The position numbers and the translations under genes are program-made. From an uncultured Lachnotalea sp. (GTDB lineage Bacteria; Bacillota; Clostridia; Lachnospirales; Lachnospiraceae), in contig CAMSZT010000026.1 in assembly GCA_947066815.1 (NCBI GenBank), positions 1 through 46,189 of the forward strand: a DNA stretch of 46,189 bases, in the 5' to 3' direction. Positions within the stretch are counted from its first letter, which is position 1. Every line of letters starts with the position of its first letter. Shown piece by piece: positions 1-41,692 of the stretch. Under the pieces are notes generated by a model. That model saw nothing but the letters and a program-made list of their open reading frames with translations, was not told where the DNA came from and did not search any database.

Positions 1-3000
1 TTCCGAAATGCCAGTTATGATCTGAGTTATCATCACTTGCCGATTGTGACCCCCATGTGCCCAATTTATTATTGTTTTTTAAGAAGTACCACTCATTTGC
101 TTTCACGCCCATAAATGGATCATGGCCATTCCTTTCTCCAATATCATCCATAGGCCAGAAGTTATTTGAAAGTGCTCCGCTGAAGTTTCCAAACGTTGAT
201 AAGCCCTTTCCGTTTGGTCCGCCCCCTCCTTTTGCAATTTTTTTTGTGTTTTTATTATAAACATTGTCTAAGGTATATGTATCGCCACTCTGCTTAAATC
301 TTAATTGATATCTTGTATACTTTGTTGACCCCTCATTCGTCGCGCTTTTAAACAGATTTTTAGGAACAGTAACATTATATTTCAAATTTCCGTTTGGCGA
401 AGTCAAGTCATCTTTCACAATCCCTTGCACCACTTTGGAGTTACCATTTGCAAATTTCCCATTTCCTCTGTTTAAATAAAGACCATAGAGTTTACCTCCT
501 CCTGTAACTTCATTATTTGCATTAGGAGTACCGGCACATGCTGTTCTGTTTCCAGATGCATACTGACCTATCGTCAGTCTATTTTCTGTGGTCGAAGAAA
601 CAAACGAACTATTGATTCCCTGCCCCTGTGTCTTCACATACTTTCCACCACTTGTTTCAGTCCCTGCATCATTATACTTTTTTCCATCTGTGATATCATA
701 ATCATAGAATGTGGCATCTGTTGCAAGTTTATTATCTCCCGTTACCGGTGTGTACCAAAAGCGAATCAGGGAATCAGCCGACAAATCAATTCTTTTATTA
801 TCTCCAGGCTTATATACGGTGTATGAACCACTTACCCAAGTAGCATCATTTTCCCTTCCCTTATTATTGTTAATTTGGCTGGATTTACATACCCATATTT
901 CGGATACCGTATAATTTTTTTGCTTAACATTTGTATTGCAGATTTTACTTAACTGCGCCACATCTTCATAATACTCATTTGGAATTTCAATGGTATCTTT
1001 AGAATAAATTCGTGCCTTTACTGTCTTAGTCTTTACATAAGGATTATCTTTATTGGCCACGAATACCGTATCCGTTCCTTTTTCAACATTAGCCTCTCCA
1101 TCAATTACTTTAAGATTTTTTCCCCAATGTTCTACGGTAACATTTATCGTCCCATATATCTTTGTCAAATGCACATACACATACACGGAGAAATGCTCTG
1201 TTTCGATGACCACATCTTTCTCTTCCGTGGCAATCGCCTCCATATCCGTCGCCGTGCCTGTGGTCTCATCTACATGGATGACCTTGACTTCTGTCTCCTC
1301 ATCCTCCACGGACTCGGTGACCTCCTGGCTGGAGAACTTCACGGACACGGGGCCGATAGGCTGAACTTCCTCGCCGTCAGCGAGCAGCTTGATATCAAAT
1401 GCCTGATAATCCTTAATCTGCTTTGTCGGCTGTACGGACTCTTCGGCTGCTGCCGCAGACTCCCCGGACTGTGCGGGCTCCTCTGCCGAGTTCTCGGACT
1501 GGGCCACGGGCGCTTCCGGTGCAACGGTCTCTTCGGGTGCCGCCGTCGGCTCTTCTGCTGCCGATGCCGTTATCTCCTCAGGGGCTGCCGTTTCTGCCGC
1601 GAGCGCTACTTCCGGTGCGGCCGACTCAACGGGTGCTGCTGTCGTCTCCTCGGGTACTTCCGCAGGATTCTGCTCGGGTGCGGCTGTCTCCTCGGGCGCT
1701 GCCGTCGGATCCTCGGCCGGTGCGGCCGGCTCTGCCTTCTCGGCTGTCGCAATGGGAGCCGCATTCGGATCCTCGAGAGGCGCGATCGCCTCCTCGATGG
1801 TCGCGATCACCTTCTCATCCTCCACCTTGGATGCCTGGATGGAGTATTCTTTTCCTTCCTCAAAGGAGCTCTGAGGGCCGCTCAGGGTGATGGTGGTCCC
1901 GTCCACCACGGTGGTCAGCTCCACCGTCGGCTCCTCGGGAGTCTCGGTCCCGGCGGGTGTTTCCGGATTAGCCGGGTCTTCTGTCCCGGCAGGGTCTTCC
2001 TGACCTTCCGGATCCTCTGTGGTGAAGATCTTGCCGCCCTCTTCGGTTTCGGCCGGACCTGCCGGATCCTGTTCCGCAGGAACCTCCGCGGCCGCCTTGC
2101 AGGCTGCCTCCAGTTCGGTCAGTTTTAAGAAGCGGACAATATGCGCTTCGCCGAGAGGATAGATATTCTCTTTTACTTCATTCTGGCTGTTGCCCTCGAT
2201 GACGTGGATCTCGTTCTTCTCCTGGTCGAAGGAGGCCACGATCCCCATCTGGACTGCCGTCTCTTCATTTTCACGCTGGGAGAAGATCAGGTCGCCCGCT
2301 GCCGGCACATAGCCCTCGGGCCCGGTCAGGAAGGCGCTGTTCCCCTCGCTCATCTTTCCAAATTCTTCACACCATTTCGCGCTGTCGGCCACCTTCGGGA
2401 ATACGGGCGTCTCGGCGTCTTTGCTCTGGATCCCCGCGTAATGGAGGCAGAAACTCACGAAGGCCGCGTCCCAGTTTCCATAAGGGTCTCCGGCGAAGGC
2501 GCCGTAGCGGGTGTAGCCCTTGCGGCTCCCGTCCTCGGCGACGGTGAAGTTCTCGATGCTCTCTTTATAGCCGAGCTGCATGGCGGCGGCCATTGCCAGG
2601 TCCTCGCCCCAGATGCCCTTCCACTGGATGCCGGCGTACTGCTTCGCCCAGACCTCCTCGGTCTCAACGTCGGCATTGGCGTCCATGTAGCAGACGTCGG
2701 TATGGATGTGCTCTTCCTTCCCGCAGGCAAGCTCCGCGGTGTAGCAGGAGTCGTCATGGAAATGAGCTTCCCGCTCCTCCTCGCCGCAGGCATAGCCTTC
2801 CGGAGTCACGCGGCAGGCTTCCGTATGTACGTGGTCCTCGCCCTCCTCCAGGCCGCAGACCAACTCTTCCTGATAAAGGCATTCGTCCGAATGGATGTGC
2901 CCCGGGTCTTCCTCCCGGCCGCAAGTCAGCACGCTGGTATAGCATTCCGCCGTGTGCTGATGCTCCTCCATCCCGCATTTCGCATTGCCCGTCATGGCAA

Positions 3001-3136
3001 CGCCGTACTGGGACAGAGCGCCCGCGACGCATCCGATCACCATGACCGCCAGAAGCAGCATGGCGACGCCGGCCCGCATGTTCTTTCTCCGCTTTGAATT
3101 CCGCTCATCCAAATACTCTCTTAAAAGTTTCTGCAT
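1..3136 (-). CDS. Large secreted surface protein with Cys/His repeats and a degenerate CHAP-like domain (3' end outside window)
   Basis: The frame is open from an ATG at 3136 to the left edge (about 1045 codons). It has a ribosome site AGGTGAG and lies 12 bases after the signal peptidase stop. Residues about 20-42 form a membrane/signal segment. Residues 54-150 carry five units of the form CG-x-E-E...H-x-H...C. Residues about 165-340 resemble a CHAP/NlpC-P60-like amidase, but W-D-A-A-F at 222-226 has Asp where the catalytic Cys is expected, and Q-M-G-I-V at 296-300 has Gln where His is expected. A Pro/Ala/Glu-rich linker follows (about 350-575), then a beta-rich region. The last residues (D-H-N-W-H-F-G) look like the start of a fibro-slime/PA14-like domain. 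No sorting signal can be judged because the end is missing. Codon use turns AT-rich beyond about residue 640. Inferred role: adhesin or cell-surface structural protein. Confidence 0.85.
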   Translation of the reverse strand, partial: MQKLLREYLDERNSKRRKNMRAGVAMLLLAVMVIGCVAGALSQYGVAMTGNAKCGMEEHQHTAECYTSVLTCGREEDPGHIHSDECLYQEELVCGLEEGEDHVHTEACRVTPEGYACGEEEREAHFHDDSCYTAELACGKEEHIHTDVCYMDANADVETEEVWAKQYAGIQWKGIWGEDLAMAAAMQLGYKESIENFTVAEDGSRKGYTRYGAFAGDPYGNWDAAFVSFCLHYAGIQSKDAETPVFPKVADSAKWCEEFGKMSEGNSAFLTGPEGYVPAAGDLIFSQRENEETAVQMGIVASFDQEKNEIHVIEGNSQNEVKENIYPLGEAHIVRFLKLTELEAACKAAAEVPAEQDPAGPAETEEGGKIFTTEDPEGQEDPAGTEDPANPETPAGTETPEEPTVELTTVVDGTTITLSGPQSSFEEGKEYSIQASKVEDEKVIATIEEAIAPLEDPNAAPIATAEKAEPAAPAEDPTAAPEETAAPEQNPAEVPEETTAAPVESAAPEVALAAETAAPEEITASAAEEPTAAPEETVAPEAPVAQSENSAEEPAQSGESAAAAEESVQPTKQIKDYQAFDIKLLADGEEVQPIGPVSVKFSSQEVTESVEDEETEVKVIHVDETTGTATDMEAIATEEKDVVIETEHFSVYVYVHLTKIYGTINVTVEHWGKNLKVIDGEANVEKGTDTVFVANKDNPYVKTKTVKARIYSKDTIEIPNEYYEDVAQLSKICNTNVKQKNYTVSEIWVCKSSQINNNKGRENDATWVSGSYTVYKPGDNKRIDLSADSLIRFWYTPVTGDNKLATDATFYDYDITDGKKYNDAGTETSGGKYVKTQGQGINSSFVSSTTENRLTIGQYASGNRTACAGTPNANNEVTGGGKLYGLYLNRGNGKFANGNSKVVQGIVKDDLTSPNGNLKYNVTVPKNLFKSATNEGSTKYTRYQLRFKQSGDTYTLDNVYNKNTKKIAKGGGGPNGKGLSTFGNFSGALSNNFWPMDDIGERNGHDPFMGVKANEWYFLKNNNKLGTWGSQSASDDNSDHNWHFG

Positions 3137-3148
3137 CTTCTCACCTTC

Positions 3149-3778
3149 CTAGCGCATAAGCTCCATCCTGCTAAAGGGCCATGCCCTGAATACTGCCCTT
3201 CCAACGATCTGGTTCTCCTCCACGCACCCGATCCCTCTGGTGCGGCTGTCTACGGAAACGGCCCGGTTGTCTCCGAGCACGAATATCATTCCCTCCGGCA
3301 CCTCGCAGGGGAATTCCACATCGCATTTCCCCAGGCTCTTCTCTGTCAGGTAAGGCTCGTCGAGCTCCTCGCCGTTCACAGATACGGTGCCCTCCTTGTC
3401 GATCTCTATCTGATCTCCCGCCACGCCGACGGCGCGCTTTAAAAGTACTCTTCCTCCGTAATAGAATCCGACGATGTCCCCGGCCTCGACCTTTTTGGTC
3501 CGGTGCAGGAGTACGATCTCTCCCTCTTTTAATGTCGGTTCCATGCTGTTTCCATTGATCCGGATCATGACCAGGAGCCTGGTGGCCACCAATGCGGTGA
3601 CGGCTGCTGCCACGATGAGTCCCACCGCCACGCCCCACAGGCGTTTTCTGAAATCATGTCTGGATTCCTCTCTCGCGAGCTCTTCCCTGAGAAGTCCGAT
3701 GGACGGGATCTCCGGCATCTGCTCCGCTTCCCCGCCTTTTTTCTTTCCCGGTCTCCTCCCCGGCCTCTTCTCAGCCAT
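3149..3778 (-). CDS. lepB: Signal peptidase I
   Basis: This is a 209-residue type I signal peptidase, which removes signal peptides of exported proteins at the outer membrane face. A single N-terminal membrane segment spans about residues 47-72. The catalytic Ser78 lies in G-N-S-M-E-P-T and the general base Lys114 in L-L-K-R-A-V-G. The later box G-D-N-R...S-V-D-S-R is also present. The reading frame extends further upstream, but the start at 3778 is chosen because it begins the recognisable protein and overlaps the upstream coiled-coil gene by 8 bases, as expected for translational coupling. Its position just before the giant surface protein suggests a dedicated peptidase for that substrate, like the SipA/Spi genes of pilus clusters. 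This is inference, and no sortase gene is visible here. Confidence 0.9.
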   Translation of the reverse strand: MAEKRPGRRPGKKKGGEAEQMPEIPSIGLLREELAREESRHDFRKRLWGVAVGLIVAAAVTALVATRLLVMIRINGNSMEPTLKEGEIVLLHRTKKVEAGDIVGFYYGGRVLLKRAVGVAGDQIEIDKEGTVSVNGEELDEPYLTEKSLGKCDVEFPCEVPEGMIFVLGDNRAVSVDSRTRGIGCVEENQIVGRAVFRAWPFSRMELMR

Positions 3779-4403
3779 TCTGCTCACCCGCAGCTGCAGA
3801 CTGCCCTGCCTCGCAGGCTTCCTCCGGCTCCTCCACGATGGCCGTCTCTTCTTCGGATCCTTTCTCTGTCTGCTTCTGGCCGAAATCCACGGATACCACC
3901 TCGCCCAGTTCTCCGCTCCTGGCCGTACCGGCCTTCTCCCGGAGCCCTGCGGGCTTTCGGTTCCCGAAGGGGATCCACTCTGTCTCATTCCCGGCTGCGG
4001 GAAGGGCCTCCTTCTGTTCGGGGAGTTTCGTCTCCACGCCTTCCTTCAGCTTCCTGACTTTCTCCAGATATGCCTCGGCTGCCGCTTCTGCTTCTTCAAA
4101 CATCTCGTCGAGCCTCAGTGCCGTCGCCGCGATGGATTCGAGGTTCTCCAGCTCGGCCTCCCTGGATTCTTTCAGCTTCTCCAGTTCCTCCTCAAGCTCC
4201 GCGATCCTCGCGTCCTTCTCATTCAGCCGTTCGTCCTTGACGTCCAGCTTCTTCTTCAGCCGCTCGTAGCTCTCCGACATGTCGTCGAATCTCTTCTTGA
4301 TCTTATCCACTTCCTTCTGAAGCCTCTCGCTCTCTTCACACTGTACCAGAAGCATCCTCAGAAGCTCTCTGCGCTTCAGCCTGCGCAACTCTCTTCCCGT
4401 CAT
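3771..4403 (-). CDS. Coiled-coil protein, first gene of the switched surface operon
   Basis: A 210-residue protein of unknown function. Residues about 20-125 are a continuous Glu/Lys/Leu heptad region with high coiled-coil character. The N terminus (M-T-G-R-E-L-R-R-L-K) is basic, and the C-terminal third is acidic and low-complexity, rich in Glu, Ala and Gly. No signal peptide or membrane segment is visible, so it is probably cytoplasmic. It has a GAAGGGG ribosome site, and its stop overlaps the signal peptidase start. It is the first gene downstream of the invertible promoter. A similar N terminus is known to me from uncharacterised gut Clostridia proteins beside signal peptidase genes, but no function can be given. 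It might scaffold or regulate export of the surface protein (inference). Confidence 0.75.
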   Translation of the reverse strand: MTGRELRRLKRRELLRMLLVQCEESERLQKEVDKIKKRFDDMSESYERLKKKLDVKDERLNEKDARIAELEEELEKLKESREAELENLESIAATALRLDEMFEEAEAAAEAYLEKVRKLKEGVETKLPEQKEALPAAGNETEWIPFGNRKPAGLREKAGTARSGELGEVVSVDFGQKQTEKGSEEETAIVEEPEEACEAGQSAAAGEQNG

Positions 4404-4505
4404 CCTACCCCTTCTTTACCCTTCTCCGTCTGCCCTGTCCTCCGTCCCGGGCTGCCCCAGTGCATTTCGTTCTGCGCCGCACCCTGTTTCCCGGTCTCTA
4501 TCGCA

Positions 4506-4534
4506 TACCACATAATATGGATTATGCGGTAACC
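4506..4534 (+). repeat. Left inverted repeat (recombination site) of the invertible segment
   Basis: This 29-base site pairs in inverted orientation with 4712-4740 (27 of 29 positions match). It consists of arms ACCACATAAT and ATTATGCGGT around the asymmetric core ATGG. This fits a tyrosine-recombinase site with two roughly 10-bp binding arms and a short directional crossover. It lies in the untranslated leader of the coiled-coil gene. Confidence 0.85.
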
Positions 4535-4590
4535 ACATGACTGATTTTCCGATCAGCGGAACCTCCGGTCCCCTATTTTAACGATAGTCT

Positions 4591-4619
4591 ATCATATATA
4601 TCGTCAAAGAAAGCGTCAA
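4591..4619 (-). promoter_or_regulatory. Sigma-A promoter inside the invertible segment
   Basis: On the minus strand, TTGACG (4614-4619) is separated by exactly 17 bases from TATGAT (4591-4596). Predicted transcription starts near 4584, passes through the left repeat (able to fold as a leader hairpin) and reaches the coiled-coil gene at 4403. Confidence 0.8.
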
Positions 4620-4687
4620 AAGAAAGTCAAAAGAGGGGTAAATTTTATTTATTTCCATTTTGGAGGAAATTAGACTTATTTTTAATC

Positions 4688-5647
4688 CTATGTAAAGGAA
4701 AAGATCGGGCAGGTTACCACATAATCCATATTATGCGGTAATTTTTTTCCGCCGCAGAGCCCGAGGCCGTTCAGCTTCTGCTCCTGTTCCTCGCAGCTGA
4801 TCAGCGTATAGATCCGGGTGGTGTTTAGGTTGGAATGCCCCAGCAAGTCCGCCAGATGGCAGATATCCTTTTCTTCCTTATAAAATGTGACTGCGAACAG
4901 ATGGCGGAGGTTGTGAGGGAATACTTTGGCCTCCTCCACCCTCGCCCTCCGGCAGAGGCGCTTCATGGAATGGAGGATGTTGCTGCGGTCCATGGGCCTC
5001 CCGCTCCTGGTCACGAACACGCTTCCCGAGGCGACGCCCCGTCTCCTGGCATACTGTTTCAATTTTCGGCACAGTTCCAGCGGCAGGAGCACCGTCCTCG
5101 TCTTCCCTTTCAGGGATACCCTGGCCCTCCTGCTCTGCAGGGCGTCCACGGTGATAAAAGGCAGCTCGCTGATGCGGATCCCGGTGGAGCAGATTGCCTG
5201 CATGATCATGAGCAGGCGTTCGTCCCCCGCCTCCCCGGCCGCCTGTAACAGCCGGAAGTATTCTTCTTTTTTGAGTTCCCGCTCTTTGCCCCGGAAGGCC
5301 TCCTTCTGTACCCGGAAGGATCTCACCGCGCAGTCCTCCTTCCCGATGCAGCGCAGGAACTTCCGCAGGGCCGCCAGCATGGAATTGGCGCTGCTGATCT
5401 CGTAATGCTCCCCCAGCCAGTTCTTGTATCCGATCACGGTCTCCTTCGTGATGGCCGCCCCCTCCCCCGCGTAGCCGAGAAAGGCCTTCACGTCCCGGCA
5501 GTATTTCTCGATCGTCGCCCGGCTCTTCTCCTCCTCCCGCAGGGCCTGCTCAAACACCGCGAGCATCCGGCCCTCCGACCGGCCGCCTCTGTCCGTCCCG
5601 CCTTCTGATCCGCCCTGCGGTATTTTGCCGCATGTTCTGTCTGCCAT
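4688..5647 (-). CDS. Tyrosine recombinase (putative DNA invertase of the adjacent switch)
   Basis: A 319-residue phage-integrase-family recombinase. The N-terminal SAM-like DNA-binding domain covers about residues 28-110. The catalytic domain shows Arg158 (S-T-G-I-R-I-S-E-L), a Lys in the S-L-K-G-K-T-R beta hairpin near 182, His245-x-x-Arg248, His271 (L-L-G-H-S) and the nucleophile Tyr280 (T-R-I-Y). It starts at 5647 with a ribosome site AAGGAG. The last codons (K-L-P-H-N-M-D-Y...) read through the right inverted repeat and end inside the invertible segment. The natural inference is that it inverts that segment, as single-gene recombinases do in other Clostridia switches. Inversion would leave the catalytic domain intact and change only the final residues. 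Confidence 0.9.
   Translation of the reverse strand: MADRTCGKIPQGGSEGGTDRGGRSEGRMLAVFEQALREEEKSRATIEKYCRDVKAFLGYAGEGAAITKETVIGYKNWLGEHYEISSANSMLAALRKFLRCIGKEDCAVRSFRVQKEAFRGKERELKKEEYFRLLQAAGEAGDERLLMIMQAICSTGIRISELPFITVDALQSRRARVSLKGKTRTVLLPLELCRKLKQYARRRGVASGSVFVTRSGRPMDRSNILHSMKRLCRRARVEEAKVFPHNLRHLFAVTFYKEEKDICHLADLLGHSNLNTTRIYTLISCEEQEQKLNGLGLCGGKKLPHNMDYVVTCPIFSFT
4712..4740 (-). repeat. Right inverted repeat (recombination site), inside the recombinase 3' end
   Basis: This is the inverted partner of 4506-4534. On the plus strand it has arms ACCACATAAT and ATTATGCGGT around core CCAT. It lies within the last codons of the recombinase gene, so it is translated. Each present-day site combines one A-type arm (ACCACATAAT) with one G-type arm (ACCGCATAAT read outward). 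Swapping the inner arms by inversion would make both sites perfectly symmetric. Confidence 0.85.
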
Positions 5648-5846
5648 CTGAATTTCTCCTTACTATGATCAAAGTTATAAATCCCTGTCTGTTTAGTATC
5701 TCTGTATTTTCGTTTTCTAAACCCGGTGATGCAGGGTTGTCCGGAAAGTCCCGCCCAGAAGGCCGGGGAACCCGGTATACAGGCAAAAAAAAGAAGGCGG
5801 AGCCCCCTGTGCTTCCACAAAGACTCTACCCCCCTGTTCTTCTCCG

Positions 5847-6764
5847 TCACGCGATTCCCTGATATTTCTGCAGTTCCTGTTTTAACTTTCTGATCTCCTC
5901 TTCCAAAGCATCTGCCCGTTCCCGTTCCTGCTCTGCCTTCTCTCGCTCTTGCTTTGCTTTCTCTCGCTCCCGGTCTGCCCGTTTCCGTTCCCGTTCTGTG
6001 TTTACCCGCTCCTCTTCCCGGATCAGTTCTTCTCTCTCAAACGATTTCATATAGCTCCGCATGGCCTCCTTCTCGCTTTTTACGATCTCCACCATCCGAT
6101 GGAGTTCCTTCAGGGTCTCATTCACCGCATTTTCTTCTGTTGTGGTCTCCATATAGCGCAGCAGCTGACGGAGTTTCTCCGGGCATTCTCCCCTTGTCCC
6201 TCTTGTGTAAAGGTAAAGCGTCCTCGTTCCGTCATCGTACGCCATCCCCGGTTCTTCCTCGCAGACACTCCGCATGGTGTAGACCATCCGCCCCAGCCCA
6301 TATGGGTCATAAGGCGTGATAAAAATAACTGCCTCGTTTTTCATTGCAGCATATTTTTTTCCTGCCTTCAGATTGTGCGTTGTCATGATGGCATGGTAAA
6401 ACCGGGAGCGTTCCGGAAGGGAGCCCGCCTCCCTCCTCTGATTTTCCGGCTCGATATCACAGATAAGCCCCCTGTCAGGCTTTTCCTCCCCTTCCTCCAG
6501 GGCTCCGGCTCCGGCCGCTGTCCCCGCTGGGACAACAGGCTCTGTCTTCTCCTCCAGATAAACATCGAGCCTCGCCCCGTGCAGATCTGCATCCCTCCCC
6601 GGAAAGTCTTTCTGCGGGACCACGCTCAGTCTCCCGAATTTCCTCTGGAAAATGGTCTCCAGGAGGATCCGGACAAACCGCTTTCCAAAACGCTTGTGGC
6701 CGACCATCGTCTCAAAGAGAAAATCGTCCAGCAGGTTCAACTCCTGTAGTTTTCTTCTCTTCAT
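5847..6764 (-). CDS. Rpn-family recombination-promoting nuclease / putative transposase (PD-(D/E)XK)
   Basis: A 305-residue member of the PF12784-type PD-(D/E)XK nuclease/transposase family. The N terminus (L-N-L-L-D-D-F-L-F) and the catalytic strand G-A-R-L-D-V-Y, followed after an acidic insert by C-D-I-E-P-E-N, match the family pattern (RLDV...DIE.Q). The conserved F-I-T-P-Y-D-P-Y segment is present. The C-terminal region (about 225-300) is a repetitive Arg/Glu/Lys coiled coil encoded by near-tandem codon repeats. The start at 6764 has an AAGGGG-like site, and a promoter lies about 180 bases upstream. A run of eight T residues after a GC-rich stretch (minus strand, near 5786-5793) may end the transcript. 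The exact biological role is unresolved; family members promote RecA-independent recombination. Confidence 0.85.
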   Translation of the reverse strand: MKRRKLQELNLLDDFLFETMVGHKRFGKRFVRILLETIFQRKFGRLSVVPQKDFPGRDADLHGARLDVYLEEKTEPVVPAGTAAGAGALEEGEEKPDRGLICDIEPENQRREAGSLPERSRFYHAIMTTHNLKAGKKYAAMKNEAVIFITPYDPYGLGRMVYTMRSVCEEEPGMAYDDGTRTLYLYTRGTRGECPEKLRQLLRYMETTTEENAVNETLKELHRMVEIVKSEKEAMRSYMKSFEREELIREEERVNTERERKRADREREKAKQEREKAEQERERADALEEEIRKLKQELQKYQGIA

Positions 6765-8698: not shown

Positions 8699-9643
8699 TC
8701 ATCGATCCCCGCCGATCAGCTCCAGGACTTTCGCGGGCCGCAGCGCGTAGCAGTAATGGACCAGGAGGCTGCTGTCCCCGCCTGCGGTGAGGAACCGGGC
8801 CTTCACACGGTCGGCCACCATATCCGCCACCTCCTCCGTGGTGTCGATGACCAGCACCAGATACTGGCTGCTGCTGTATCTGGTATAGACGTCCCCGATG
8901 CGCAGGGTGCTGTGGATATCCCCTCCCAGCCGCTCCATGAGGACATCCTTCTCGCCGGGAGAGATACTCTTCCCCCTGCCGTCCACCAGAGTGAGCAGGA
9001 TGGCACAGGCCTTCTGCCCGCTCCGGACAAGCCCCCGTTCCAGAAAACGGTAAATGCATTTGAAAGTCTCATAATCCTGGCAGTAGGCCCCCGGTTTTCG
9101 GATCTCTTCCATCAGGTCCTCCCGGATCTGCCTCACATCCTTCCGGTAATTGTCTCCGGGCGTCTCCGGCCGACCGCCTCCGCGCCCGTCGGATCCTCTC
9201 CGCCTGTCTGCAAGCGCCTCTCCGGCCCGCTCCAGCATGGATGCATAAGTCTCCCCCTTCTGCCTGACGGCAGCGCCCACCGTCACCAGAAGGCTGATCC
9301 CCCTGCCTTCTTTCCTTTTATCTGTGCGGAACCGTTCCTCGATCCTCCTGCCGATCCTCTGGGCCGTCTCCGAGTCCCTGCAGCCGGGCATAAAAATGAC
9401 GAACTCGTCCCCGCCGATCCGACCGAGGACATCGCCGTTCCGTATCATATACCCCAGGGTCTGCGCCACCTGCTTTAAGCATTCATCCCCCTCCAGGTGG
9501 CCGAACTGGTCATTGATCCGATGGAAACGGTCGATATCGCATAAAAATAAGGAGCCCCCGCCCTGCATCTTTTCCGCGATCTTCTCCTGTATCCCGCTTT
9601 CATTCCATATACCGGTGAGCCAGTCGAGATTTTCTGTTTTCAT
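8699..9643 (-). CDS. Diguanylate cyclase with a second, degenerate GGDEF-like half
   Basis: A 314-residue cytoplasmic GGDEF protein that would make cyclic di-GMP from two GTP. The first domain has the active motif G-G-D-E-F at 77-81, metal/substrate residues in C-D-I-D-R-F, and an inhibitory I-site R68-x-x-D71 five residues before the motif. The second half (about 175-314) keeps the same secondary-structure pattern, but carries S-S-S-Q-Y at 257-261 in the signature position, so it is probably inactive and perhaps regulatory. There is no membrane segment or recognised sensor domain. The start at 9643 has a G-rich site. It appears monocistronic. Confidence 0.9.
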   Translation of the reverse strand: MKTENLDWLTGIWNESGIQEKIAEKMQGGGSLFLCDIDRFHRINDQFGHLEGDECLKQVAQTLGYMIRNGDVLGRIGGDEFVIFMPGCRDSETAQRIGRRIEERFRTDKRKEGRGISLLVTVGAAVRQKGETYASMLERAGEALADRRRGSDGRGGGRPETPGDNYRKDVRQIREDLMEEIRKPGAYCQDYETFKCIYRFLERGLVRSGQKACAILLTLVDGRGKSISPGEKDVLMERLGGDIHSTLRIGDVYTRYSSSQYLVLVIDTTEEVADMVADRVKARFLTAGGDSSLLVHYCYALRPAKVLELIGGDR

Positions 9644-9745
9644 TCCCCCACCCCCATGTAAGTTCCGATTTAATCTTACCAGACTTTTCCGGCCTCGGCA
9701 AGAAGGGCGCCTCCCATATTTTTTGTGAAGGGCAGAAAATCCGCC

Positions 9746-9780
9746 AAAAAAGAACCCTGCGCCGGCAGGATCCTTTTTCT
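9746..9780 (-). terminator. Terminator of murA
   Basis: On the minus strand AAAAAG is followed by a 9-pair stem (two G-U pairs) around the loop CGGC and then CTTTTTT. It lies 46 bases after the murA stop. Confidence 0.75.
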
Positions 9781-9825
9781 TCTCAGCATATAAGATAAAA
9801 CTTTTCTTTATATTTTTTATTTCCT

Positions 9826-11315: not shown

Positions 11316-13844
11316 TCACGGAATCCAGCTGATAAAAGGATAACCATAGGCGCCAAAATATGCTTCCGCTTCTTCTTCTGACATGAGACGGTCCTCACCG
11401 GACAGAGGATCGTAGATCACGAGATTTTTATAAATATCATATCCGAGGATCAGTTCGGCTTGGTCTTCCTTTGTCAGAGCCAGCACCGGACAGCCTCTGT
11501 TCACATAGTAGAGCATCTGGTTGAGGATGCAGCCTCTGAGATCCACGGCCCTGCCGGACGGCGTCTCGTCCAGGATCTCACAGGCGCTTTTTCCCTCCGC
11601 CAGTTTCCCGGCCCCGTCTCCCGGAACGCCGGCCTTTTTTAACAGCATGGACAGGCAGGCCGCAAGCCTTTCGTCCGCCGAAGCGGCCCTTTCCCGCTCC
11701 ACCGCCTCCGCCATGGCCTCTGTCTTCCGGTTCGCTCTGGTCCACACATAATCCTGGCCGTCCCCGACCACCACGCCCATCTGGTCATAGACCAGCCGGA
11801 TGGCCTCGGAGGCAGATCCGCAGATCCCCTCCAGGCGCCCGCAGGCATAGGCATAATACTGCCGCCCCTCCCCGGGGACACGGGGCAGCTCCAGTACCCG
11901 CAGTTCTCCCTCCGTAAGAGCTTTTGGCTTTACGATGCTCAGGGCCTGCCCCTTCTTTGCCGGTGCGCCCGCCTGCAGGGTATAGGTGGTCTTTTTCAGC
12001 TCGGAGGAGGCCCGTTCCAGCACCTGCTCCCCGCTCTCCTCCGCCTGGTTCTGGATCAGGGCATCGCTCTCCGCTGCCACCCAAGCGCCGTCCCCGTCCC
12101 GCCTCTGCCGCTCGATCCGGACCTTTCCGTCCTCCACCCGGATATCCCGGATATAGAGTCCGTCCCGCTCATAGACGGTCTGCACCTGTCCGTCCCTTCC
12201 CACGATCTCGAGGGCATACATGGGGTACTCTGTCGCCAGCTTCCGTTCGATATCGCTCTCCTTTGCCTTCCCGTAGATGAAATCCCCGTCGATGAATCCA
12301 AGAGGGCGGACCGCCTCCCCCTCGGCGGCATGGACCGTGAAGCTTTCTCCCTGGTCCATATAATATACCTGGATGGTCTTCCCGCCGTAGATATCCTCCT
12401 CCTGCCAGGCCGCCGCCCCGTATTCCGTGTCCACGGCAAAGGAATGCTCCCGCAGGCCGCTCACGAGCTCCACGCACTCTTCCCCGGAAAAATCAATGGC
12501 ATAAATGCTGTTTCCGAACATAAGGTAGAGTAGCTGGTTTTTTCCTCCGTAAAAGAGGGTATCGAGCTCTTTCTCCAGCACCTGGCACGGCCTGTCGGAG
12601 GGAATATAGAATACCTCCGTGACCGCGTTGTCCGCTTTCTCATACCGGTAAAAGCTCAATCCGCACTCGCCCTCGTGGGCTCCCCGGTTCATATATCCGT
12701 AAACGGCAAAGGAGACATCCCCGTTGTCTTCTGCCCCCACGACCTTAAACCCGTGCTGGTCGTAGAGATCCCTGTCCCCGCCGTCTGACCCTTCTTTAAA
12801 GGAAAACAGCCTGGTCATGCCGTTTTCGGTCCTGTCGTAACTCCAGAGCTCCCCGCCCGCGGCAAAGACCGTATGGTCACCGGCCTGTTTAAACTCGACC
12901 CCCGCACTCTCCGGGCTCAAAATGCCCAGATCGATGGAGCCGTTCTTTACGACCGCCTCCGAGGGTTCGAACTCCTGATCCATGGTCCGCTCATAGGCAA
13001 TGAGCCACAGCCTCCCGTCCACAAAGCGGAGGCAGAAAAACTCTTTGACCCGGTAGGTCTCCTGCTGCCCCGCCTCGTTTGGCGCCGTCACCGTGTAGAG
13101 GAACTGGACCGCCCCCACCATCTCGTTCATTTCCTTGATATCCATAGAGACCTCGCCGGAAAGCTCCGGCTTCAGGGCTCCCCAGGCCACATGGTTGTAG
13201 CTGGACTTGATATCCGCATAGCCCAGGTTGCTGTTGTCGGTCTCGTTGTTGCTCTCCAGCTGGATCGTAAAATCCTCCGTGACGTTTTTGGTAAACGCCA
13301 GCTCCCTGAAATTCCTGGCAAATGCGATCTGCTCCCCGATATGGGTATCGTCATAGTAACGGATCCTGGTATAGTAACAGATCCGCTCCTCCCTGCCGGT
13401 CCCCACATGGAGGACAAGGGCGTACTCCGTCCCCTTTGCCAGCAGATCCTGGAAGGTGAGCTCCCCCCGCACCGTCTCCCCCTCCGTCCGGAGGTTTTCG
13501 CAGGAGCGGGATTCGATCAGATTCTCCCCGTCCAGGCTCCTCACCTCATAGTCCACCGACCGGATCTCATTGTCGTAGGCGCGGATGGAGAAGGGCAGCC
13601 TCCTGTCCCCCGGGACCGGGGTAATGGTGTCCCGCATGGAGGGGATATCCATCTCCTTCACATAACCGCGGAGCGTATTGACCGGACTCCCTTCAAACTC
13701 CATGGAGACGAGGGGAAGGGTAGCCCCTTCCATCACCGTATAGACGGCCTCCTCCTCCTTTTTTCTCGTCACAAAAAAGACTGCGGCCACGGCCGCCACA
13801 AAAATAAGCGTCAATATGATCATGCGTCTGAATATCTTCTTCAT
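11316..13844 (-). CDS. Membrane-anchored large protein with propeller-like middle and C39-peptidase-like C terminus
   Basis: An 842-residue protein of unknown function. Residues about 6-26 are a signal anchor (I-I-L-T-L-I-F-V-A-A...) and the rest is predicted outside the membrane. The middle (about 280-620) contains repeated short beta segments of the kind found in propeller or WD/TolB-like folds. The C terminus (about 670-842) resembles a C39-like papain-fold domain: A-A-C-L-S-M-L-L-K-K-A-G as the Cys helix and A-E-L-I-L-G-Y-D...V-I-Y-D-P-L-S-G as the later strands. Where family members usually have His before that strand, Gln is seen, so it may be inactive. The start at 13844 was chosen because the membrane segment follows directly. 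A promoter lies about 80 bases upstream. Confidence 0.7.
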   Translation of the reverse strand: MKKIFRRMIILTLIFVAAVAAVFFVTRKKEEEAVYTVMEGATLPLVSMEFEGSPVNTLRGYVKEMDIPSMRDTITPVPGDRRLPFSIRAYDNEIRSVDYEVRSLDGENLIESRSCENLRTEGETVRGELTFQDLLAKGTEYALVLHVGTGREERICYYTRIRYYDDTHIGEQIAFARNFRELAFTKNVTEDFTIQLESNNETDNSNLGYADIKSSYNHVAWGALKPELSGEVSMDIKEMNEMVGAVQFLYTVTAPNEAGQQETYRVKEFFCLRFVDGRLWLIAYERTMDQEFEPSEAVVKNGSIDLGILSPESAGVEFKQAGDHTVFAAGGELWSYDRTENGMTRLFSFKEGSDGGDRDLYDQHGFKVVGAEDNGDVSFAVYGYMNRGAHEGECGLSFYRYEKADNAVTEVFYIPSDRPCQVLEKELDTLFYGGKNQLLYLMFGNSIYAIDFSGEECVELVSGLREHSFAVDTEYGAAAWQEEDIYGGKTIQVYYMDQGESFTVHAAEGEAVRPLGFIDGDFIYGKAKESDIERKLATEYPMYALEIVGRDGQVQTVYERDGLYIRDIRVEDGKVRIERQRRDGDGAWVAAESDALIQNQAEESGEQVLERASSELKKTTYTLQAGAPAKKGQALSIVKPKALTEGELRVLELPRVPGEGRQYYAYACGRLEGICGSASEAIRLVYDQMGVVVGDGQDYVWTRANRKTEAMAEAVERERAASADERLAACLSMLLKKAGVPGDGAGKLAEGKSACEILDETPSGRAVDLRGCILNQMLYYVNRGCPVLALTKEDQAELILGYDIYKNLVIYDPLSGEDRLMSEEEAEAYFGAYGYPFISWIP

Positions 13845-13920
13845 GAGTATGCTCCCTGATAATAAGCTGCACGCCGTAGGGCCATAAGCGAATATAGCCA
13901 TGGCAGATCACCATGACTAT

Positions 13921-38992: not shown

Positions 38993-41692
38993 TCAATTCG
39001 TCACATCCGGTCTCGACGCTTCGGACAAAGAAAGCACGGCATCGTTCTTTTTCATAAACAGCAGGCCAAACGAACCCGGTCCGCAGTTGCAGGCAATGGC
39101 GGAAGACGCCTTCTGCAGATAGACCCTTTCAAAGGGACAGTACTGCTGCACCAGGCGCTGAATGAGACGGATGCTTCTCTCCTCCAGCCCTGCATAGGTG
39201 ATAAAAAGAACCCTTCTGTCGATGTTTCTCGGATTCGAAAGAACCTTCCGCACATAGCTTTTTATAATATGGACAAAACTGCCCATCTCCATGCCGGTGA
39301 CCGCCATTCTGCTCTTTCTGAGAGAAATGACAGGATGAAGGAGCAGGGCGTCGCAGAGGGTCTGCACCCTTCTGGAAATATGTCCCGCCTGGCACATCAT
39401 ATGCGTACTGTCGATAATGAATGCGGAGGAAATGTAACGCCGCAGCCGTTTCACGGCCTTTACGATCTCCGCCCTCGGAATATGGTTCTCCGCCATAGAA
39501 GCTGCATAAAGCACCACCAGTCCCATGCTGCTGGAAAGATGCCCGGAATCCAGGACCGTAACATTCTCAAAGGACTTCGCCGCCTCAAGGGCATTGTAAT
39601 ATCCCTGGCTGGTATGCTTCGCCATGGTAATGTGGATCACGTTCTGGGCTTCCGTCAGCCTCTCTGCAAAAAACCGTTCATAGTCTTCCACGTCCGGCGG
39701 CATGGAATAGCCTTTTTCTCCTGCCACAATGTGCAACAGCAGCTCATCTGCCTTCAGCTCCTTCTCATCTAAAAACCGCCCCTGATCCGTACAGACATAA
39801 TAAGGGCATACGGGAATGTCAAATTCCTTCAGCAGAGACTCCGGAAGGTCACATACGCTGTCCGTCGTCACCATGAGGGAACGCCTCTTCGCCTGCTCAA
39901 AGATCAGGACATCCTTCCCGATCTCCGACTGGCCGGCCTCCTCACTGAGCTTCACCAGCTCTCTCGGAAGAATGCTCAATACACCCGCTTCCAGCAAAGC
40001 GCCGCTTACCGGTTTCGCCAGATAACCGCTGAATCCCTCTTTCCGGTAAAGCAGCTGGTTATCACTTCCCGCATTGGCCGTCAGCGCAATCACCGGCGCA
40101 TCCTGGCAAAGTCCCCCCGGCTGCGACCGCAGCGCATGAAGGCACTGGATCCCGTCCATTTCCGGCATCAGATGATCCATCAAAATGGCGTCATAATGCT
40201 GGATCTGCGTCAGCCTCAGGCATTCGGCGCCGCTTATCGCCGTATCAATATGAATTTTCGTGGCCGAAAGAAGCTTCCGGACCACCATCAGATTCATTTC
40301 GTTGTCATCCACCACAAGAATGTGCGCTCTCGGCGCTTCAAAGCTCTGCCGGTACTGCTCTCCTTCGCGGGCCTTCACGCGGGACTCCAGAGTAAAGACG
40401 CCCAGCTCCTTACTGTCCACGATATCCTGCTCCAGCATGACCAGAAAGGTCGACCCCTTGGTATAAACACTGTTGACGCTGATCTCGCCGCCCATAAGCC
40501 CTACCAGCTGATGGACGATGCTCAGACCCAGCCCGGTGCCTTCGATATGACGGTTCTTTTCCTCATTCACCCGTTTAAAGGCATTGAAGATATAAGGAAT
40601 GTTTTCCTTCTTCACACCCTGGCCGGTATCCTCCACCGAATACCAGACCCGCACCCTGTTTAAATTCAAGCGCTCGCACCAGATAGAAAGGGTGACGGAG
40701 CCCTCGCTGGTATACTTCACCGCATTATTCAGCAGATTGATCAGGACCTGTTTGATCCGCACCTCATCGCCGCAGAGCATGCTGGGAATCGAAGCGTCTA
40801 CCTGGAGCCGGAACTCCAGCCCCTTTTCCTTGGCCTTAACCCAGATCATATTGACGATCTCGGAAAAAAGCGCCCCCGTCTCATAAGAAACGTTTACGAT
40901 CTCCATCTTTCCGGATTTGATCTTGGACAGATCCAGAATGTCGTTGATCAGCGTCAGCAGCATTTTACTGGCGCCCTGGATGTTCCTTGCGTTTTCGGCA
41001 ACGTCCTCCGGAATGTCTCCCCTCAGGATGATTTCATTTAATCCGATAATCGTGTTGATGGGCGTACGGATCTCATGGCTCATGCTGGAAAAAAAATGGT
41101 TCTCCGCCTTGTTTAATTCCTCAATCTCCTTTTTCTGCTGCCTGGATATCTCATTTTCCCGCTCATAAAGCCTGTTCAGGAACAAAACCAGCACGCTGGT
41201 CAGCAGCCCCACCAGAATGACGGAAACTGCGGAGCAGAAGAAATAGTGGCTCTCTGAATTCCGTACGGCCGATTCCGGAAAATAAAAAACCGTATAATAG
41301 CATAGCAGCGTCTCTGCTGCACAGAGCAGGAAAAAAAACCTCTTCCGCCTCCCCTCCAAAGTGATGCTGATATAAATAAAGCAGAGCACAAACCATTCCG
41401 GAACGCCGCTGTAAAAGCCGCCCGCCGAAAAAAAACTTACCGGGAACAGCAGAAGAAGCAGTATTGTAATGACTGTGGCCCCCGCATTGATACATTCCTT
41501 CCGGATACTGATCTTCACGACCGCCGCCATAGAGACAAGACTCACCGCCAGAAACAGCAGATTTACCAGATTCCTTCCCATTAACAGTACGATCGCCAAT
41601 GCGACCATGCTGATTCCAGTGACCACCCGGAACATACGCTCCCGAAGACTGATCCGATGGTCAAAAATTATTTCAAACCACTTTTTCAACAC
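38993..41692 (-). CDS. Hybrid histidine kinase fused to a C-terminal DegV domain
   Basis: An 899-residue membrane sensor. The N-terminal region has about six hydrophobic segments (20-175) and a short coiled linker. A HisKA domain follows with the phospho-acceptor His206 (M-S-H-E-I-R-T-P). A HATPase domain follows (L-I-N-L-L-N-N-A-V-K, D-T-G-Q-G, G-T-G-L-G-L). A receiver domain (about 465-590) has D-D-N-E-M-N and phospho-acceptor Asp in L-M-D-H-L-M-P. Residues about 610-890 form a DegV-like domain (T-T-D-S-V-C-D-L-P, D-S-G-H-L-S-S-S-M-G). DegV proteins bind fatty acids and partner fatty acid kinases. The start is a GTG behind GGAGG. It is the last gene of the phosphorelay operon. The fusion suggests lipid sensing (inference). 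Confidence 0.85.
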   Translation of the reverse strand: MLKKWFEIIFDHRISLRERMFRVVTGISMVALAIVLLMGRNLVNLLFLAVSLVSMAAVVKISIRKECINAGATVITILLLLLFPVSFFSAGGFYSGVPEWFVLCFIYISITLEGRRKRFFFLLCAAETLLCYYTVFYFPESAVRNSESHYFFCSAVSVILVGLLTSVLVLFLNRLYERENEISRQQKKEIEELNKAENHFFSSMSHEIRTPINTIIGLNEIILRGDIPEDVAENARNIQGASKMLLTLINDILDLSKIKSGKMEIVNVSYETGALFSEIVNMIWVKAKEKGLEFRLQVDASIPSMLCGDEVRIKQVLINLLNNAVKYTSEGSVTLSIWCERLNLNRVRVWYSVEDTGQGVKKENIPYIFNAFKRVNEEKNRHIEGTGLGLSIVHQLVGLMGGEISVNSVYTKGSTFLVMLEQDIVDSKELGVFTLESRVKAREGEQYRQSFEAPRAHILVVDDNEMNLMVVRKLLSATKIHIDTAISGAECLRLTQIQHYDAILMDHLMPEMDGIQCLHALRSQPGGLCQDAPVIALTANAGSDNQLLYRKEGFSGYLAKPVSGALLEAGVLSILPRELVKLSEEAGQSEIGKDVLIFEQAKRRSLMVTTDSVCDLPESLLKEFDIPVCPYYVCTDQGRFLDEKELKADELLLHIVAGEKGYSMPPDVEDYERFFAERLTEAQNVIHITMAKHTSQGYYNALEAAKSFENVTVLDSGHLSSSMGLVVLYAASMAENHIPRAEIVKAVKRLRRYISSAFIIDSTHMMCQAGHISRRVQTLCDALLLHPVISLRKSRMAVTGMEMGSFVHIIKSYVRKVLSNPRNIDRRVLFITYAGLEERSIRLIQRLVQQYCPFERVYLQKASSAIACNCGPGSFGLLFMKKNDAVLSLSEASRPDVTN

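Follow-up and report, generated by a model that had tools for sequence, protein, structure and literature searches.

A very probable promoter inverton with an adjoining tyrosine recombinase gene in front of a sortase-pilus operon of an uncultured Lachnotalea species

To our knowledge, phase-variable adhesion has been studied best in Bacteroides and in pathogens. In Escherichia coli, the invertible element fimS, together with FimB and FimE, controls a pilus operon and has a recombinase gene adjacent to it. It has been described as a 314-bp element that is flipped by two recombinases (PMC5763102). RecV is a recombinase of Clostridioides difficile under which a regulatory switch undergoes reversible inversion (PMC7446863), and the sortase pili of Bifidobacterium breve are phase-variable via replication slippage (PMC9187656). 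The closest described system is inverton group 139, linked to invertase group 35, which comprises 33 invertons, 32 of them from Clostridia and nearly all located beside a tyrosine-type recombinase; for two examples orientation shifts were found in reads, and the reported sizes are arms of 26 nt and a segment of 205 nt in Clostridium sp. D5, and 14 nt and 227 nt, respectively, in Intestinimonas (PMC11892184, Microbiome 2025). Here we describe a locus in a 46,189-nt stretch of DNA from an uncultured Lachnotalea sp. (GCA_947066815.1, CAMSZT010000026.1), hereafter the window, which is the whole of contig C26 of a genome of 3.44 Mb in 86 contigs. The locus is very probably a promoter inverton, that is, a tyrosine recombinase inverts a 177-nt segment, which in the assembled sequence is in the ON orientation in front of a pilus operon.

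This kind of switch is already known (PMC11892184). From the parts of that study available to us, the present cassette resembles group 139 in its dimensions, the class of the host, and the type of the adjacent gene, and on these grounds it probably belongs to this Clostridia group (139/35). The pilus operon, the shared promoter box, and the fossil copy described below go unmentioned in the same passages of PMC11892184. As with fimS, an invertible element would control a pilus operon and the recombinase gene adjoins it; unlike with fimS, one recombinase was found instead of two, and the pilus is of the sortase type rather than the chaperone-usher type. Going by the available description of RecV, both cases represent a recombinase-inverted regulatory switch in a member or relative of the Clostridia, whereas each recombinase analyzed here adjoins its own segment. 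B. breve, as far as its description goes, likewise has ON/OFF sortase pili in a gut bacterium, but by slippage instead of DNA inversion. The present pilus switch was not described in the titles and abstract openings, covering part of the results, that were retrieved from the literature on Lachnospiraceae or Clostridia invertons, invertible promoters, and inversion-switched pili.

The segment is flanked by two arms of 29 nt that are complementary at 27 of 29 positions, and each of them is nearly a palindrome in its own right, centred on a 4-nt core. With a score of 23 this was the best inverted repeat of the region, compared with a maximum of 13 and a mean of 6.3 in 300 block shuffles. The arms and the 177-nt segment conform to the description of a promoter inverton as inverted repeats of 10–40 nt that flank a promoter-bearing segment. 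Among the four promoter-like sites found in the 3 kb scanned (shuffles: mean of 0.8), TTGACG-17-TATGAT on the minus strand was the best and the only one on the strand of the operon, which it faces. The first-pass annotation had proposed an invertible promoter switch consisting of four parts, namely repeat arms, promoter, operon, and a tyrosine recombinase gene; all four are indeed present in the window, the 29-nt repeat pair and the full-length recombinase gene beside it were retrieved, and the promoter is directed toward genes for a coiled-coil protein, a signal peptidase, and a surface protein. The recombinase gene does not abut the right repeat, as had been stated, but its frame spans the entire arm and its stop codon lies inside the segment. 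Rfam yielded no RNA family at gathering scores in the window and none at E 1 in the region 4400–4800. The features are compiled in Table 1.

Table 1. Coordinates of the putative switch and of the adjoining genes in the window
Feature	Position	Strand	Remarks
Large secreted pilin-type surface protein, 5' part	1..3136	-	cut by contig end
Signal peptidase I	3149..3778	-	open frame to 3988; homology suggests start near 3778
Coiled-coil protein, first operon gene	3771..4403	-	
Left inverted-repeat arm, operon side	4506..4534	+	itself near-palindromic: ACCACATAAT-ATGG-ATTATGCGGT
Invertible segment (predicted), 177 nt	4535..4711	no strand	one clear promoter, ON orientation
Promoter element (predicted)	4586..4620	-	TTTGACGCTTTCTTTGACG (4602-4620), N10, -10 TAGACT (4586-4591)
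Alternative promoter reading TTGACG-17-TATGAT	4591-4619	-	highest-ranked of 4 promoter-like sites
Right inverted-repeat arm, recombinase side	4712..4740	-	wholly within 3' end of recombinase frame
Tyrosine recombinase, 319 aa, probable invertase	5647..4688	-	full-length frame, candidate catalytic residues kept

In the proposed mechanism, the recombinase would bind both near-palindromic arms and invert the segment between them. In the given orientation the promoter would fire through the left arm into the coiled-coil/signal peptidase/pilin operon (ON); the rest of this operon, with a backbone pilin and sortases, probably lies on another contig. After inversion the promoter would fire toward the recombinase gene, entering it from the 3' end, and would leave the pilus operon unserved (OFF). 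We infer from the sequence that the recombinase acts on these arms, that the segment flips in this strain, and that transcription follows the predicted promoter orientation.

Strong support came from the relatives of the recombinase. A first scan revealed 11 of them in named contigs, and a profile of ten rows (the recombinase and nine relatives) matched at E 1e-50 or better in at least 92 of 397 genomes drawn from the same family. Of the listed places, every one down to E 3.7e-86 except G169:C277 was taken as a locus, leaving out weaker matches. The 149 recombinase frames in these 142 loci were reduced to 137 distinct ones by removal of duplicates, of frames below 300 bits, and of frames lacking the C-terminal part of the profile; 116 of the 137 are followed by at least 350 nt after the stop codon. 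An inverted-repeat pair was present at the 3' end of the recombinase gene in 102 of these 116 loci, but in none of 37 upstream regions and in none of 116 block-shuffled controls, a linkage that bears indirectly on the role of the recombinase in inversion. Including one further locus (L056), 103 segments with a repeat pair were available. Relative to the end of the recombinase frame, the start of the pair lies anywhere from 53 nt upstream to 80 nt downstream, the arms have lengths of 15–34 nt with a single exception of 89 nt (L146), the spacing ranges from 145 nt to 466 nt, and the motif CATAAY-N4-RTTATG occurs in the first arm in 67 of the 103 cases. The exceptional arms of L146 (G283:C2) each contain three tandem copies of the site.

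If these segments are invertible, both orientations should be encountered among relatives. At a promoter score of at least 11, a cut-off that is reached by 8% of the shuffles and that, like the other thresholds, was chosen by us, 58 of the 103 segments contain a promoter, which points toward the cargo genes in 13 cases (ON, including the segment in the window), toward the recombinase gene in 44 cases (OFF), and is unclear in one. The distance from the end of the -10 element to the exit arm is 30–56 nt in 12 of the 13 ON and in 36 of the 44 OFF segments (7–126 nt in the remainder). The distances are alike in both states, as a mirror image would give. The excess of OFF segments has a p value of 5e-5 if the loci are independent, which they are only in part. 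On a FastTree tree of the recombinases, the 13 ON labels require 10 parsimony changes (counted without a shuffle control), and the ON states thus seem to have arisen many times.

Closely related loci also differ in segment orientation. When loci were paired at a recombinase DNA identity of at least 72%, three of the 32 pairs, representing two events, have the segment inverted relative to its flanks. One event concerns two modules on a single contig (L108 and L109), the segments of which align with 71.4% identity inverted versus 51.9% direct, while the next 300 nt are 78% alike in direct order; this inversion is readable by eye. The other, weaker event distinguishes L066 from L051 and L052 (59.5% and 58.8% inverted versus 49.0% and 50.2% direct, with 72–75% beyond the segment). 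The search for inverted relatives that the first-pass annotation had advised was successful for the family; the genome itself contains one orientation only. In addition, a contig end lies no more than 400 nt from the recombinase gene in 21 of 128 loci on its 3' side, compared with 4 of 128 on its 5' side (p = 0.0009), an excess that is expected where reads of both orientations mix. No claim is made for terminators within the segment as insulators of the operon in the OFF state: 57 loops were found, seven opposite to the promoter strand versus two on it (sign test, p = 0.18).

Several observations weigh against the inverton interpretation. The assembly of this strain represents a single orientation. 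No promoter above the cut-off is present in 45 of the 103 segments, 14 of the 116 loci have no repeat pair at the thresholds used, and the segment has the same orientation in 23 of the 32 close pairs, with six unclear. Contig breaks can also be caused by repeated recombinase genes, and four of the 21 contig ends on the 3' side belong to one genome, G063. This genome harbors six matches to the recombinase (L101, L111, L114, L116, L119, L120), four of them less than 400 nt from a contig end on the 3' side. Finally, the recombinase has a C-terminal tail that extends through the arm, an arrangement of only two of the 103 loci, this one included; this tail could impair the enzyme.

The rarity of this tail would fit a switch locked in the ON state, that is, an inverton by descent with a defunct recombinase and a fixed pilus promoter, as would the decayed module of the congener G004, the promoter of which also faces the operon. 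This is unlikely, albeit the most serious of the alternatives: the recombinase gene has a full-length frame that retains the candidate catalytic residues, 27 of 29 arm positions remain complementary, and inversion would merely shorten the tail by six residues, the C-terminus reading LPHNMDYVVTCPIFSFT or LPHNMDYAVTT in a protein of 319 or 313 aa. The change of the tail upon inversion was also considered as a feature of the family and rejected, the frame extending past the arm in just the two loci mentioned. That the arms do not form an inversion pair but serve as a terminator or, for an integrative element, as attachment or other cis-acting sites is very improbable. Tyrosine recombinases also act as phage integrases, and distant phage relatives exist (the best with 42% identity over 82% of the query), but the arms are in opposite orientation, the spacing of 145–466 nt throughout the family leaves too little room for an element, and homologous segments occur inverted. 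That the inverted repeat arose by chance beside an unrelated XerC/D-like gene deserves practically no credence. The recombinase is indeed XerA/XerC/D-like by profile, yet it does not reach the cut-off of any Xer equivalog shown, none of the 300 shuffles exceeded 13 compared with the observed 23, and the recurrence of the arrangement in 102 of 116 loci refutes this explanation.

The recombinase has a Phage_integrase domain and an N-terminal SAM-like domain. Six candidate catalytic residues (R158, K182, H245, R248, H271, and Y280) are invariant in the ten-row alignment. Among solved structures, its nearest relatives are the XerC-like, XerA, and XerD proteins, and the scores against the Xer equivalog models are 138.4 for XerA (cut-off 220), 114.3 for XerD (329.6), and 113 for XerC (335.15). 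In a further difference from fimS, the scores against the tyrosine-type DNA invertase models PRK09870 (24.6 bits versus 221) and PRK09871 (22.4 versus 222), which we take to represent the fim-type invertases, are far below the cut-offs. Directly upstream of the recombinase gene, a frame at 5847-6764 (minus strand) has a weak match to the Rpn family of recombination-promoting nucleases (36.9 bits, cut-off 52.1). The phage relative mentioned above is encoded at 9001-9792 of a faecal contig labelled as phage (MT836497.1).

The downstream genes had been annotated as a giant surface-protein operon. The coiled-coil, signal peptidase I, and large secreted-protein frames were confirmed, the last being cut by the contig end, and the set of genes is more aptly called a sortase-pilus operon than simply a surface-protein operon. 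Unbroken homologs of the large protein, six copies among the six congeners read, comprise 1375–2181 aa; in G007 the frame is split in two. Two homologs were scanned: SpaA occurs in both, and Cna_B together with an LPXTG anchor in one. In five congener loci the large protein is followed by an LPSTG protein; the four scanned all contain SpaA and the anchor, three also the Gram-positive pilin backbone domain. In the one congener locus scanned further, a sortase gene comes next. Thus, in congeners, LPXTG pilins with SpaA/Cna-type domains and a sortase are encoded in one cluster, as in a sortase-dependent pilus operon. In the genome under study, an LPSTG protein and two sortase homologs (63% and 49%) are encoded at the start of contig C47, from which we infer that C26 and C47 carry one operon.

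The promoter of the segment contains a direct-repeat box, TTTGACG twice with a spacing of 12 nt, 10 nt before the -10 element. Alignment with congeners suggests that this element is TAGACT (4591-4586) rather than TATGAT; of the earlier promoter prediction, the single site facing the operon in the ON orientation stands, and the -10 element was likely misplaced. A corresponding box, TTGACG-N6-TTGACG-N10-TATACT, precedes a paralogous coiled-coil/signal peptidase/surface-protein operon in six genomes, including the one studied here (contig C21), and in G010 also the gene of one other secreted protein. With two mismatches allowed, the search retrieved 13 places in 11 genomes, compared with two for the reversed pattern. 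Not all of the matches fit: those in G001, G008, and G006:C3 have two mismatches; the match in G010:C40 precedes a frame with a hydrophobic N-terminus, and a match to a shorter pattern in G010:C65 has no pilus-type operon behind it. Around the copies of the box outside the switch no flanking repeat pair was found, the few pairs detected lying to one side. The box may resemble repeats of the pho-box type, a kind bound by response regulators of the PhoB/OmpR type.

The orthologous operon, with a gene for a BTAD regulator upstream, was found in five congeners (G005, G006, G007, G009, G010) and in one copy in G004. In the seven congener stretches, no inverton was found ahead of this operon: L164 and L166 have no pair, L163 has a hairpin with a 1-nt loop (this stretch falls short of the end of the upstream integrase gene), and L161, L162, L165, and L167 have weak or palindromic pairs, 74–88% complementary, none at a recombinase end. 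In L164 (G005), a different integrase gene of the phage type (Phage_int_SAM_3, 5510-6703) lies upstream of the pilus operon, with no inverted-repeat pair beyond its end. The other copy in G004 still has remnants of the recombinase gene, the same box directed toward the operon, and a single degenerate arm, but a repeat pair is no longer present; judged from these remains, it can be read as a fossil switch locked ON. A 40-codon frame that crosses the left arm in the predicted ON transcript was dropped as a candidate gene, as it is not kept in the aligned G004 relative (read by eye).

The genes behind the switch are diverse throughout the family. In 97 loci the sequence extends 700 nt or more past the segment, and in 85 of these the first frame of 90 aa or more runs in the direction of the recombinase gene. 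Pfam matched 79 families in a set of 140 cargo frames, each the first or second of its locus and trimmed to 330 aa; the 25 families shown include signal peptidase (8), kinase (4), the UDP-glucose dehydrogenase type (4), VWA (4), CpsB/CapC (3), Rrf2 (3), and choline-binding repeats (3). In a scan of ten cargo frames, VWA domains were found in L011, L022, and L024, and the signal peptidase of L039 is 46% identical to that in the window. Homologous cargo was shared by 21 of 34 pairs of loci with recombinase identities of at least 70%, by 6 of 86 pairs at 60–70%, by 63 of 4403 at 40–60%, and by none of 133 below. These values are underestimates, since L069 and L096 scored as unlike, although the 300 nt that follow their segments agree at 90%. 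The pattern is consistent with a cassette that swaps cargo partners. In two loci of G182 (L077 and L090) the segments are 97.9% identical while the recombinases are 79.8% identical in DNA, which suggests that a segment was copied between them.

Two observations in the window concern other genes. In an 899-aa frame (38993-41692, minus strand), histidine kinase, response-regulator receiver, and DegV domains are fused, a combination that, as far as we know, is unusual. ARAGORN predicted a tRNA-Gly at 12951-13029 (minus strand) inside an 861-aa frame without Pfam match (11316-13901); this call is probably spurious, because Rfam finds no tRNA in the window.

Taken together, these comparisons define from sequence a cassette that occurs throughout a recombinase family in gut bacteria of the Clostridia type, the ON or OFF state of which can be read from the sequence, and which stands in front of genes for pili, VWA adhesins, kinases, capsule-type enzymes, and regulators. 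We tentatively offer a further idea, by analogy and with considerable doubt, that the locus is a two-input switch combining a signal-bound box with inversion, and that the recombinase-promoter cassette moves as a regulatory part, is joined anew to other genes, and captures the promoter of its cargo. Two pilus operons with a common promoter box, one invertible and the other not, would offer a clean test of how inversion is combined with ordinary regulation. If the idea holds, a signal would turn on the second pilus in every cell, but the pilus described here only in cells with the segment in the ON orientation, and inversion would set which pili a signalled cell displays.
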